DNA from: Streptomyces nymphaeiformis
GTDB taxonomy: Bacteria > Actinomycetota > Actinomycetes > Streptomycetales > Streptomycetaceae
Assembly (NCBI RefSeq): GCF_014203895.1
Contig: NZ_JACHJY010000004.1
Span: 434,001-498,000 of the forward strand
DNA length: 64,000 bases
Direction: 5' to 3'
Position 1 is the first letter of the stretch, and the number at the start of each line of letters is the position of its first letter. Made by a program: the position numbers and the translations under genes. This document shows, piece by piece, positions 3,547 through 59,904 of the stretch. The notes under the pieces were generated by a model that saw nothing but the letters and a program-made list of their open reading frames with translations, was not told where the DNA came from and searched no databases.

Positions 3547-3801
3547 GTGCCGAAGTCACGGATCCGCAAGAAGGCCGACTTCACGCCTCCGCCCGCCAAG
3601 CAGGCCACCAACATCAAGCTGACCAACCGCAGCTGGGTGGCGCCCGTGATGCTGGCCCTGTTCGCCATCGGTCTGGTGTGGATCGTGGTCTTCTACGTCA
3701 CCGACGGCTCCATGCCGGTCGAGTCGATCCGGAACTGGAACATCGTGGTGGGCTTCGGCTTCATCGCGGCCGGCTTCGGCGTCTCCACGCAGTGGAAGTA
3801 G
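3547..3801 (+). CDS. crgA: Cell division inhibitor CrgA
   Basis: CrgA, an 84-aa actinobacterial divisome protein that coordinates septation in aerial hyphae and interacts with FtsZ/FtsI-associated proteins. The sequence has a basic N-terminus ([15 protein letters not shown]), the conserved NRSWVAPVM lead-in to a first membrane helix ([16 protein letters not shown]) and a second helix ([21 protein letters not shown]). Start GTG 3547 is preceded by GGAGAG. It is divergent from the DUF881 gene with 140 bp between them, where both promoters must lie. Confidence 0.97.
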
Positions 3802-3924: not shown

Positions 3925-4160
3925 TTATCCACAGCGTTGTGCACAGCACTGGATAACTTACGAAGATCTGTGGATAACTCGGCGCGAGGTTGACGCCGGT
4001 ATGACTGGAATCACCTTCGCCGAAACGCGCGACGCCCCTCGCCTCCCTGGAGAAACTCCAGGTCAGAGGCGGGGGGCGTCGTCTTTCCCCACAGAGCGGA
4101 GAGGGTTCGCCACGCACTGTGGATAACTCTGGGGAAAGCTCACAGAGAAGCTCTTCCACA
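3925..4160. promoter_or_regulatory. DnaA-box cluster outside oriC
   Basis: Three perfect TTATCCACA boxes lie at 3925-3933 (plus), 3969-3977 (minus) and 4118-4126 (minus). A TTGTGCACA box is at 3937-3945, and weaker matches lie at 4085-4093 (TTCCCCACA) and 4152-4160 (TCTTCCACA). The perfect boxes are closer to the high-affinity DnaA consensus than most boxes in oriC. The site lies between the convergent ends of crgA and the rhomboid gene, so it is not a promoter. Titration clusters of this kind near oriC have been described in S. coelicolor (H69, H24, D78). Confidence 0.82.
4031..4080. terminator. Hairpin terminator between crgA and rhomboid gene
   Basis: GACGCCCC-GCCTC...GGAG-aaa-CTCC...GAGGC-GGGGCGTC folds into a long GC-rich hairpin followed by a short T-rich tract (gtctttcccc). 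It lies between convergent genes and could serve both. Confidence 0.75.
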
Positions 4161-4171
4161 GGCCTGTGTGC

Positions 4172-5035
4172 TCAGGTGAGCGCAGCCGAACGGGCGAGAA
4201 CGATCCCCAGGTCGATCAGCAGCACCACCGCGCACGCCCCGTACTGCACGAGGTCCCGCCGGGCGCGGGGCGCGTGCACCATCACGTACGTCAGCAGGAC
4301 TCCGGCCACCAGACCGCCGACGTGCGCCTGCCAGGAGATCCCCGGACGGGTGAACGTGATGAGCAGGTTCAGCGCCACGAACAGCAGCGCCGGCCGCATG
4401 TCCTGCCGCCTGCGCCGGGCCAGCACGATCCAGGCGCCGAGCAGGCCGTAGACGATGCCGGAGGCGCCGAGCGAGAACTGGTTCTGCGGGGAGAGCAGAT
4501 AGGCGAGCGCGGAGCCGGAGAGCCCGGAGAGCAGGCACAGGGCCGTGTACCGGATCCGCCCCAGCTCGGGTTCGACGATCCCGCCGATCATCCACAGGCC
4601 CAGCATGTTGAAGAGGAGGTGCGGGATCTCCTGGTGGAGGAAGGCGGAGGTCAGCAGGCGGTACCACTCGCCGTCCGCGACCCCGACCAGCTCACCGCTG
4701 GGGAGGTAGGCGCCGCCGATCAGCGCGAGGTCGTCGATGAGCCGGTCGCCCACCACCTGGACGGCGATGAACAGTGCCAGGTTGATCGCCATGAAGATCT
4801 TGGTGACGAGCCGTCCGTCCGCCGCCACCCGGCCGCCGGCGAGCGTCCGGGGCTGGTTGGCGTCGGCGGCGTGACCCGTCCCCGAGCCGCCCCGCACGCA
4901 CTCGGGGCACTGGAAGCCGACGGACGCGGAGATCATGCACTGCGTGCAGATGGGCCGCTCGCAGCGGACGCAGCGGATGCCGGTCTCGGCCTCCGGGTGG
5001 CGGTAGCAGCGCAGCAGTCCGGGCTGCGTGTCCAT
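4172..5035 (-). CDS. Rhomboid family intramembrane serine protease with N-terminal zinc finger
   Basis: Intramembrane protease of 287 aa. The N-terminus (residues 10-46) is a B-box-like zinc finger with CYRHPE, CVRCERPICTQC and CPEC ligand pairs. The rhomboid core follows, with the WYRLLTSAFLH motif, HLLFNMLGLW, catalytic Ser192 in GASGIVYG and catalytic His238 in QAHVGGLVAG, and about six membrane segments. ATG 5035 is used. It lies directly downstream of the cyclophilin gene (22 bp apart, same strand), so the two are probably co-transcribed. Substrates are unknown. Confidence 0.95.
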   Translation of the reverse strand: MDTQPGLLRCYRHPEAETGIRCVRCERPICTQCMISASVGFQCPECVRGGSGTGHAADANQPRTLAGGRVAADGRLVTKIFMAINLALFIAVQVVGDRLIDDLALIGGAYLPSGELVGVADGEWYRLLTSAFLHQEIPHLLFNMLGLWMIGGIVEPELGRIRYTALCLLSGLSGSALAYLLSPQNQFSLGASGIVYGLLGAWIVLARRRRQDMRPALLFVALNLLITFTRPGISWQAHVGGLVAGVLLTYVMVHAPRARRDLVQYGACAVVLLIDLGIVLARSAALT

Positions 5036-56647: not shown

Positions 56648-57997
56648 TCAGCGCGTGGCGCCCGTGACGATCCAGCGGCCGGAGCGCATGCGGAACCAGA
56701 GGGTTCCCATCCGGACCGTCATCATCAGGGTCATCGCCCACCAGAGCGCCGTCAGCCCGCCGCCCAGCGTCGGGACCAGGAGCGCCACCGGGGCGAAGAC
56801 GACGAGCGTGAGCAGCATCGCCCAGGCCAGATAGGGGCCGTCCCCCGCGCCCATCAGGACCCCGTCGAGGACGAAGACCACGCCGGAGATCGGCTGGGAG
56901 ACCGCCACCACGAGCAGGGCCGGCAGCAGGGTGTCCTGCACGGAGGCGTCGCTGGTGAAGAGCGGGATGAACAGGGGCCGGGCGGCGATGAGCAGCGCGC
57001 CGAGCACCACCCCGGAGACGACGCCCCACTGGACCATGCGGCGGCAGACCTGTCGTGCCCCGTCGGCGTCGTCCGCCCCGAGGTAGCGGCCGATGATGGC
57101 CTGGCCGGCGATGGCGATCGCGTCGAGCGCGAAGGCCATCAGGCTCCACAGGGACAGGATGATCTGGTGGGCGGCGACCTCGGCGTCCCCGAGGTGGGCG
57201 GCGACGGCCGTGGCGATCATCAGGACGGCGCGCAGCGAGAGCGTACGGACCAGGAGGGGGACGCCGGCCTGGGCGGAGGCACGTATGCCGGCCGGGTCGG
57301 GGCGGAGGGAGGCGCCGTGCCGCCGGGCGCCGCGTACGACCACGACGAGGTAGGAGACGGCCATGCCGTACTGGGCGATGACCGTGCCCCAGGCGGAGCC
57401 GGCGATGCCCAGACCGGCGCCGTAGACCAGGCCGGCGTTGAGCGCGCCGTTGGCCGCGAAGCCGGCGATGGCCACGTAGAGCGGTGTACGGGTGTCCTGG
57501 AGGCCGCGCAGGACGCCGGTGGCGGCCAGGACCACCAGCATGGCGGGGATCCCGAGGCTGGAGATCCTGAGGTAGGTGACGGCGTACGGGGAGGCGGTGT
57601 CCGAGCCCCCGAAGAGGTCGACGACCCAGGGTGCCGTGGGCAGGGTCAGCACGACGACGACGGCGCCGAGGAGGAGCGCGAGCCAGATGCCGTCCATGCC
57701 CTGCCGGATGGCGGCCGGGAGGTCGCCCGCGCCCATGCGCCGGGCGACGGCGGCCGTGGTGGCGTAGGCGAGGAAGACGAAGACGCTGACGGCGGTGGAG
57801 AGCAGTGCCGCGGCGATCGCGAGGCCCGCGAGCTGAGGTGTGCCGAGGTGGCCGACGATGGCGCTGTCGACCATGAGGAACAGCGGCTCCGCGACGAGGG
57901 CGCCGAAGGCCGGCAGGGCGAGGGAGACGATCTCGCGGTCGTGTTGTCGACGGACGGCCTTGGAGGTCACGGGGGCCTGAGTCGTGGGCTCAGTCAT
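56648..57997 (-). CDS. MATE family efflux protein (DinF-like)
   Basis: 449-aa multidrug and toxin extrusion transporter with 12 helices arranged as two halves. Helix 1 region IVSLALPAFGALVAEPLFLMVDSAIVGHLG carries the conserved acidic residue, and the second half has AHQIILSLWSLMAFALDAIAIAGQAIIGRYLG. ATG 57997. Likely an antiporter; substrate unknown. Separated from dnaB by the 425-bp DnaA-box region. Confidence 0.94.
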   Translation of the reverse strand: MTEPTTQAPVTSKAVRRQHDREIVSLALPAFGALVAEPLFLMVDSAIVGHLGTPQLAGLAIAAALLSTAVSVFVFLAYATTAAVARRMGAGDLPAAIRQGMDGIWLALLLGAVVVVLTLPTAPWVVDLFGGSDTASPYAVTYLRISSLGIPAMLVVLAATGVLRGLQDTRTPLYVAIAGFAANGALNAGLVYGAGLGIAGSAWGTVIAQYGMAVSYLVVVVRGARRHGASLRPDPAGIRASAQAGVPLLVRTLSLRAVLMIATAVAAHLGDAEVAAHQIILSLWSLMAFALDAIAIAGQAIIGRYLGADDADGARQVCRRMVQWGVVSGVVLGALLIAARPLFIPLFTSDASVQDTLLPALLVVAVSQPISGVVFVLDGVLMGAGDGPYLAWAMLLTLVVFAPVALLVPTLGGGLTALWWAMTLMMTVRMGTLWFRMRSGRWIVTGATR

Positions 57998-58422
57998 GGG
58001 CTCAATCTAATCTTCCACAGGTAAGAGATGCAATGTGTTAGTGGTCCTTACTTTCCGCTGGTGCGGGACTTCGGGTGTGGGCCGTTTGTTCTGATCTTGG
58101 TCCGGGGGCAGAACTTTTTCTCCCCCACAGCCCGTGGATGGGAAACGTGCAGGTCAGTGGGGTGGGGAGGGGGGTGTTATGAGTTTGTCCACATGGCTGT
58201 CCCCCGCTCCGTGCACAGGATCCGGGGAGTTCTCCACAGCATCTGGGCCTTCATCCACAAGGCCTGTGGATAACCAGATTGGCTGACGCCTCCCGCGGGC
58301 CTACCGTGGTCCGGCGCCCGACGCGCCAGCAGCGGTCGCGAAGCCACTCGTTGATCAAGGCCGTGGCGTAGGAAAGTAGTGGCACGGCGAGGTCCGCGGA
58401 GCGGACGGGAGGAGGTGGCTTG
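57998..58422. promoter_or_regulatory. dnaB upstream region with DnaA-box cluster
   Basis: 425 bp between divergent MATE and dnaB genes. DnaA boxes: TTGTCCACA 58185-58193 (perfect), TGTGGATAA 58265-58273 (perfect TTATCCACA), TCATCCACA 58251-58259, TTCTCCACA 58230-58238, CCGTGCACA 58209-58217, and CGTGGATGG 58133-58141. The best boxes lie 150-240 bp before dnaB. No gene seen. Confidence 0.85.
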
Positions 58423-59904
58423 GTGAGCGTTCCCGAGCCCATGGACGACCCCTGGGCCGACAGCGGACCGAGCGACCGGCTGCCCACCCGTACCCGAGGC
58501 GAAGGCCGCGGCCGGGGCCGCGGCCGCGACGACCAGCACGAGCGGGGCTCCGAGGGTCCCTGGGACGGCGGCCTCTCCGGCTTCGAGCGCGTCCCCCCGC
58601 AGGACCTCGACGCCGAGCAGTCCGTCCTCGGCGGCATGCTGCTCTCCAAGGACGCCATCGCGGACGTCGTGGAGATCATCAAGGGCAACGACTTCTACAA
58701 GCCCGCCCACGAGACCGTGTACGCGGCGATCCTCGACCTCTACGCCAAGGGCGAGCCGGCCGACCCGATCACCGTCGGCGCCGAGCTCACCAAGCGCGGC
58801 GAGATCACCCGCGTCGGCGGCGCCTCCTACCTCCACACCCTGGTCCAGTCGGTCCCGACCGCGGCCAACGCCTCGTACTACGCGGAGATCGTCCACGAGC
58901 GCGCGGTCCTGCGCCGGCTCGTGGAGGCGGGCACCAAGATCACGCAGATGGGCTACGCGGCCGACGGGGACGTCGACGAGATCGTGAACTCGGCCCAGGC
59001 CGAGATCTACGCGGTCACCGAGCAGCGCACCACTGAGGACTACCTGCCGCTCGGCGACATCATGGAGGGGGCGCTCGACGAGATCGAGGCGATCGGCTCC
59101 CGCAGCGGCGAGATGACCGGTGTGCCCACCGGCTTCACCGACCTCGACTCGCTCACCAACGGCCTGCACCCCGGCCAGATGATCATCATCGCGGCCCGTC
59201 CCGCCATGGGTAAGTCGACGCTCGCCCTGGACTTCGCCCGGGCGGCATCCATCAAGCACAACCTGCCCAGCGTCATCTTCTCCCTCGAAATGGGCCGCAA
59301 CGAGATCGCGATGCGCCTCCTCTCGGCCGAGGCCCGGGTGGCGCTCCACCACATGCGCTCCGGCACGATGACCGACGAGGACTGGACGCGTCTCGCCCGC
59401 CGGATGCCGGACGTCTCGCAGGCCCCGCTGTACATCGACGACTCCCCGAACCTGTCGATGATGGAGATCCGCGCGAAGTGCCGCCGGCTCAAGCAGCGCA
59501 ACGGCCTCAAGCTCGTCATCATCGACTACCTGCAGCTCATGCAGTCGGGCGGTTCCAAGCGGCAGGAGAGCCGTCAGCAAGAGGTCTCCGACATGTCGCG
59601 AAACCTGAAGCTCCTCGCCAAGGAGCTGGAACTGCCGGTGATCGCGCTGTCCCAGCTGAACCGTGGTCCCGAGCAGCGCACCGACAAGAAGCCGATGGTC
59701 TCCGACCTCCGTGAGTCCGGCTCGATCGAGCAGGACGCCGACATGGTCATCCTGCTGCACCGTGAGGACGCCTACGAGAAGGAGTCCCCGCGCGCGGGCG
59801 AGGCGGACATCATCGTGGGCAAGCACCGTAACGGCCCGACGGCCACGATCACCGTGGCCTTCCAGGGCCACTACTCACGCTTCGTGGACATGGCGCAGAC
59901 CTGA
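58423..59904 (+). CDS. dnaB: Replicative DNA helicase DnaB
   Basis: 493-aa hexameric helicase. A Gly/Arg-rich N-terminal extension (residues ~18-50) precedes the DnaB N-terminal domain (PPQDLDAEQSVLGGMLLSKDAI) and the RecA-like motor with the Walker A motif RPAMGKST, Walker B KLVIIDYLQLM and the C-terminal motif GEADIIVGKHRNGPT. GTG 58423 has GGAGGAGG upstream. No intein is present, unlike some actinobacterial copies. Confidence 0.98.
   Translation: MSVPEPMDDPWADSGPSDRLPTRTRGEGRGRGRGRDDQHERGSEGPWDGGLSGFERVPPQDLDAEQSVLGGMLLSKDAIADVVEIIKGNDFYKPAHETVYAAILDLYAKGEPADPITVGAELTKRGEITRVGGASYLHTLVQSVPTAANASYYAEIVHERAVLRRLVEAGTKITQMGYAADGDVDEIVNSAQAEIYAVTEQRTTEDYLPLGDIMEGALDEIEAIGSRSGEMTGVPTGFTDLDSLTNGLHPGQMIIIAARPAMGKSTLALDFARAASIKHNLPSVIFSLEMGRNEIAMRLLSAEARVALHHMRSGTMTDEDWTRLARRMPDVSQAPLYIDDSPNLSMMEIRAKCRRLKQRNGLKLVIIDYLQLMQSGGSKRQESRQQEVSDMSRNLKLLAKELELPVIALSQLNRGPEQRTDKKPMVSDLRESGSIEQDADMVILLHREDAYEKESPRAGEADIIVGKHRNGPTATITVAFQGHYSRFVDMAQT

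Follow-up and report, generated by a model that had tools for sequence, protein, structure and literature searches.

An ordered array of DnaA boxes conserved next to the likely dnaB promoter in Streptomyces

In Streptomyces coelicolor, the DnaA-box clusters H69, H24 and D78 were reportedly treated by Smulczyk-Krawczyszyn et al. (2006, J Bacteriol) as limiting initiation, mainly through D78. The sequence TTGTCCACA is given as the high-affinity DnaA box of this species (PMC4285127). For dnaB itself, the closest described system is that of mycobacteria. According to the parts of that study drawn on here, the region upstream of dnaB in Mycobacterium tuberculosis (the Rv0057 region) is among the five top DnaA sites in vitro, Rv0010c-Rv0011c is also a DnaA site, and in M. 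smegmatis DnaA occupies the counterparts of all five in vivo; in one DnaA mutant (I282T), less binding upstream of dnaB correlates with lower dnaB expression (PMC7738170). In Caulobacter crescentus, dnaB is reported to belong to the DnaA regulon, with boxes predicted upstream (Hottes 2005, via the review PMC8203912). Double DnaA boxes of Escherichia coli, which are 2–3 bp apart upstream of nrdA, mioC, polA, purH and other genes, are described as cooperatively bound (PMC11317965).

In the window (the whole 64-kb stretch of Streptomyces DNA analysed here, G000:C4:434001-498000), we identified four DnaA boxes inside 89 bp upstream of dnaB, two that match the consensus and two with one mismatch, and weaker sites besides (Table 1). 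Mismatches were counted against the consensus TTRTCCACA. An earlier note on this DNA had listed six box-like sequences before dnaB, two of them perfect. The two perfect boxes (boxes 1 and 4) are where it placed them, and four sites have at most one mismatch; the remaining two are weaker, with three mismatches each, and a row of six equal boxes is rejected. The weaker pair in that list would be 58133–58141 and, we think, 58209–58217. In 150 simulated 64-kb windows of equal dinucleotide make-up, the maximum was two boxes with ≤1 mismatch per 100 bp, compared with four at 58181–58280. Across the whole window, 37 such boxes were observed (oriC included), against a simulated mean of 6.3.

Table 1. 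Features of the dnaB upstream region, in window coordinates.
Feature	Position	Strand	Remarks
Divergent gene, presumably MATE-type efflux	56648–57997	-	ORF; other border of the intergenic region
Outlying box 0, TCTTCCACA	58011–58019	+	two mismatches; next to the divergent gene, 174 bp ahead of box 1
Conserved block upstream of box 1	58090–58157		T-tract, CACAGCCCGTGGATG, TGCAGGTCA
Box-like site CCATCCACG	58133–58141	-	three mismatches; inside the conserved block
Box 1, TTGTCCACA	58185–58193	+	exact consensus match
Weak DnaA-like box CTGTCCCCC	58197–58205	+	three mismatches; 12 bp after box 1
Weak DnaA-like box CCGTGCACA	58209–58217	+	three mismatches; 24 bp after box 1
Box 2, TTCTCCACA	58230–58238	+	one mismatch
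Box 3, TCATCCACA	58251–58259	+	one mismatch
Box 4, TTATCCACA	58265–58273	-	exact match; adjoins the putative promoter
Putative dnaB -35, TTGGCT	58279–58284	+	conserved TTG at box 4 + 14
Putative dnaB -10, TACCGT	58302–58307	+	17-bp spacer; conserved TANNNT at box 4 + 37
dnaB, replicative DNA helicase	58420–59904	+	start TTG 58420 or GTG 58423; stop-free reading frame

The gene downstream, which we take to be dnaB, as in the earlier note, has a match in all 150 genomes of the genus that were searched. The MATE-type identity of the divergent gene is likewise our assumption, made from its sequence. We noted a second DnaB-like gene in the same genome (G000:C9:114512-115957; 48% identity, one in-frame TGA). 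In some genomes (e.g., G045, G088, G242, G336), the DnaB match is interrupted near residues 264–272 and 434–440 while a single long frame stays open, the pattern that inteins at two sites would give. Box 0 is doubtful as a part of the array. It lies within a 19-nt inverted repeat (58003–58021/58263–58281, 79% complementary) in which box 0 and its flank mirror box 4 and its flank, so that each of the two divergent genes may have a corresponding DnaA site.

The motifs TTGGCT and TACCGT, 17 bp apart, presumably form the -35/-10 pair of dnaB, judged by the Streptomyces promoter consensus. Five bases separate the end of box 4 from the -35. The -10 motif is weak, and a generic sigma-70 promoter and terminator scan reported nothing at the locus, this pair included. 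The proposed dnaB promoter rests on conservation. Among 57 close Streptomyces loci (that of the window included), box 4 (≤1 mismatch) is present in 57, and a box occurs at -80 from it in 53, at -35 in 53 and at -14 in 43. The TTG at box 4 + 14 and the TANNNT at + 37 occur in all 57. A second set of 80 loci among the matches listed, made up of Streptomyces and one Kitasatospora and including at least three loci identical to those of the first set, has box 4 and the TTG in 80, the TANNNT in 76, boxes 1 and 2 in 72 each and box 3 in 65. In both counts the anchors were picked from the boxes alone, with the promoter motifs not used. An exact three-box pattern is found in at least 141 of 392 genomes of the genus (0 in the control columns inspected), which is a lower bound and not a frequency because the pattern is too narrow for box 1 and misses TTGTTCACA.

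Twelve loci lack the box at -80 (4 of the 57 and 8 of the 80). In ten of them it is found 11 bp farther out and in two, one bp farther. As 11 bp is one helix turn, these natural exceptions retain the helical face. The ten loci with the longer box 1–box 4 spacing are L037, L053, L054, L062, L249, L254, L278, L280, L281 and L300; nine of them have one more box within the added turn, and the ten appear as natural one-turn insertions. An information profile was built from the 95 of 117 loci that could be anchored, almost all of which belong to the family; the other 22 were left out. Box 1 has 1.49 bits per column, box 2 1.86, box 3 1.68 and box 4 1.97, values that are inflated because the anchoring used the boxes (box 4 is the anchor itself). 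The weak sites at 58197 (1.47) and 58209 (1.58) are conserved about as well as box 1. At the first, CTGTCCACA stands in its place in two loci (L091, L097), and at the second, TTGTGCACA does so in three (L082, L085, L089). The -35 has 1.50 bits per column, the -10 1.21 and box 0 1.19, and the leader at 58330–58400 only 0.25.

The geometry loosens with distance inside Streptomycetales. For other genera of the family, 51 genomes matched and 40 loci were fetched, one of which (L083) was too short. Of the resulting 39 loci, 27 have box 1 at -80 and six have it at -79; box 2 is present in 34, box 3 in 32, the TTG in 32 and the TANNNT in 19. A box with ≤1 mismatch stands at the place of box 0 in 16 of these 39, compared with only 4 of the 57 close Streptomyces loci. 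Besides the 57, nine divergent Streptomyces loci were counted (L126 and L127 are listed and uncounted); they have box 1 at -80 in three, box 2 in six, box 3 in three, the TTG in eight and the TANNNT in seven. In other families of the order (11 loci out of 15 genomes), box 4 is present in six, box 3 in five, the TTG in none and the TANNNT in five. As would be anticipated for a DnaA-regulated promoter, the boxes lie in the promoter region beyond chance and are conserved there, and their distance to the predicted core promoter is fixed, more loosely so outside close Streptomyces. We conclude that the array is real and conserved, and that it stands at what is likely the promoter of dnaB.

Boxes before dnaB recur throughout the class. 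Outside the order, we used 65 loci from 74 genomes, taking better DnaB matches first and making no random draw; nine genomes were dropped for having no upstream sequence, a partial or weak match, or a congener already used. A box with ≤1 mismatch occurs within 400 bp upstream of the DnaB match in 62 of the 65, two or more boxes in 46 and three or more in 27, and boxes precede dnaB in 29 of 31 families. The 65 loci hold 151 boxes, where 120 shuffled motifs averaged 3.9 (sd 3.9, maximum 21); the density is 5.88 per kb near dnaB against 0.41 farther upstream (14 times). Most boxes (116 of 151) are directed towards dnaB. Some may be coding, as 49 of the 151 precede the match but still fall inside the open frame of dnaB. 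Elsewhere in the phylum, in other classes (27 loci used, from 55 genomes), a box was found in 13 of the 27, with 2.1 versus 0.18 per kb.

The boxes are also phased with the DNA helix. In the class loci, 343 spacings between (+,+) boxes (9–120 bp, same strand, one box with ≤1 mismatch and its partner with ≤2) follow a lattice of ~10.75 bp, with 88% within 2 bp versus 37% expected and a histogram that is nearly empty between the lattice teeth. At period 10.75 these spacings give R = 0.76 (n = 343) when pooled, although this and the other pooled phasing figures are descriptive because these very data served to choose the period and the loci are related. Resampling at family level is fairer: with one pair per family (29 families), the mean R was 0.76, compared with 99.9% of random draws below 0.47, and without adjacent boxes the family-level R was 0.72. 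The spacings peak at 11–12 bp, which we regard as the equivalent of the 2–3 bp gap that E. coli DnaA is reported to favour (PMC11317965).

The TANNNT motif downstream of (+) boxes keeps the same period (R = 0.685, n = 102), with 52 and 62 as the commonest offsets. In 300 locus swaps R reached at most 0.35, and eight control motifs gave R of 0.04 to 0.31, one of which, ATNNNT, was stacked seven times at offset 19. By our own count, all four loci of one family (f20; L164, L166, L168, L197) have box 4 and a TANNNT at + 37 as in Streptomyces. The rest of Streptomycetales, with Streptomyces set aside, shows the 10.75-bp period as well (R = 0.68, n = 462), and other classes show it more weakly (R = 0.52, n = 28). 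At the oriC of the window, same-strand spacings have hardly any phasing (R = 0.29, n = 38).

In combination, these results lead us to consider it probable that the dnaB promoter incorporates the cluster as a control region that responds to DnaA, which would make transcription from this promoter DnaA-dependent. The suggestion of the earlier note that dnaB expression depends on DnaA thus gains support from the fixed box–promoter distance, the helical phase of the TANNNT and the reported mycobacterial binding and mutant (PMC7738170). DnaA would occupy the strong boxes 1 and 4 and from there could extend over the weaker same-direction boxes between them, along one face of the DNA. The complex would end just before the -35, at box 4, the centre of which is ~45 bp upstream of the start site expected near 58313–58316. 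At box 4 it would most likely aid RNA polymerase in starting dnaB transcription, and the supply of helicase could thereby track the availability of DnaA. For Streptomyces we infer DnaA binding, oligomer formation and activation rather than repression. Given DnaA-dependent control, activation is distinctly the better expectation, as suggested by the mycobacterial mutant (PMC7738170) and the Caulobacter regulon in the reviewed account (PMC8203912).

A bolder proposal, to which we give a little less than even credence, covers the class Actinomycetes as a whole. Here DnaA might form an orisome-like filament on the dnaB promoter, with the 10.75-bp lattice of same-direction boxes running in register into the -10, so that a complex of the type that opens oriC switches on the helicase gene. 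If true, initiation and helicase supply would be bound to one DnaA state.

Other DnaA-box clusters provide context. The oriC boxes are at 22.7–23.3 kb of the window, consistent with the distance of about 35 kb given in the earlier note. The same note's description of the dnaB cluster as the second one outside oriC is true for the window, and another is located ~122 kb from oriC (L156, G000:C4:577600-580800, positions 1304–1786), with two TTATCCACA and five one-mismatch boxes, in what we take to be the serS-pheA interval. The other cluster in the window, at 3925–4126, has three TTATCCACA plus TTGTGCACA and is flanked by convergent genes at 3547–3801 (+) and 4172–5035 (-). We presume these to be crgA and a rhomboid-type gene, with a cyclophilin gene behind the latter. 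The neighbourhood of the mycobacterial Rv0010c-Rv0011c site (ppiA, Rv0010c, crgA) resembles this arrangement. Being between convergent genes, the crgA cluster is at neither gene's promoter, which sets the dnaB array apart. The 9.2-Mb genome has 69 copies of TTNTCCACA, and by our reading of the rows for the whole genome, only the dnaB cluster and 3925–4126 have three of them in 300 bp. Counted in the same way, 21 of the 69 fall within 175 kb around oriC (G000:C4:403908-579278).

The earlier note had also raised titration. On such a reading the boxes, being close to oriC, would take up DnaA and leave less of it available, much as D78 of S. coelicolor or datA of E. coli, and the position before dnaB would be secondary. 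The dnaB locus is indeed a cluster with consensus boxes near oriC, as a titration or reset site (D78, datA, DARS) should be, and the concentration of TTNTCCACA around oriC and the existence of a promoter-less cluster between convergent genes are in line with such a role. Moreover, untimely initiation is reportedly repressed by clusters close to the origin in both S. coelicolor and B. subtilis (PMC4585315). However, titration requires neither a fixed promoter distance nor a phased -10, both of which are conserved, and boxes recur before dnaB in nearly every family examined. The fixed spacing, the lattice and the in-phase TANNNT favour one-face DnaA control of dnaB transcription over titration alone, and we consider titration an unlikely main function, albeit one compatible with promoter control. 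Repression, with a complex at box 4 beside the -35 obstructing RNA polymerase, is about equally improbable in our estimate. The gap of only five bases would suit it, and DnaA is reported to bind and autoregulate its own promoter in several bacteria, including Streptomyces lividans (review PMC8203912). On the other hand, the boxes are upstream of the putative core promoter and do not overlap it, and the mycobacterial mutant with reduced binding at the dnaB promoter is described as under-expressing dnaB (PMC7738170).

Conservation also extends beyond the boxes. The block at 58090–58157 has 1.01 bits per column (versus 0.25 in the leader), and DnaA boxes do not explain it; its TGCAGGTCA and T-tract are at a constant distance from box 1, with a short T-tract near 58114–58121. 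This could point to another role for the element (a non-coding RNA, another regulator or a minor origin), with incidental DnaA boxes. We consider this very unlikely, given that the DnaA motif itself is enriched over shuffled motifs in the class set and that a search of both strands of 57900–58450 gave no Rfam hit at E values up to 1; a known RNA was rejected as the identity of the region.

DnaA control of dnaB is already known in other bacteria, and the widespread promoter-phased architecture seems new. In the open-licence literature, which leaves most subscription journals outside its scope, we found no account of dnaB boxes being phased with the helix, which is no proof of novelty. DnaA boxes kept in helical step with RNA polymerase across much of the class would be a clear natural case of DnaA working as a structured transcription factor, and the phased architecture makes a face-of-the-helix test possible in laboratory strains that are harmless.

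Like H69, H24 and D78 of S. coelicolor, the dnaB array is a Streptomyces DnaA-box cluster that lies near oriC. Judging by the cosmid names, we take it to be probably H24, with H69 as the crgA cluster and D78 as the serS-pheA one; the multi-box places at crgA-rhomboid, dnaB and serS-pheA would fit these three. The array has the same box consensus as the Streptomyces oriC, which has many weaker boxes, and differs in that the oriC of the window is hardly phased (R = 0.29), whereas the dnaB arrays of the class are phased (R = 0.76). In contrast to the double boxes of E. coli, five same-direction sites, of which two are weak, span 75 bp here and are joined by an inverted box at the promoter. Caulobacter crescentus, in which DnaA boxes are likewise predicted before dnaB according to the review (PMC8203912), belongs to a different phylum. 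With mycobacteria, Streptomyces has in common a region before the helicase gene that is DnaA-bound in the former and predicted from its boxes to be so in the latter. The Streptomyces 45/21/14 array is its own, and box architecture and phasing are absent from the mycobacterial account in the parts considered here (PMC7738170). A phased promoter would explain why the dnaB upstream region ranks among the five strongest mycobacterial DnaA sites.
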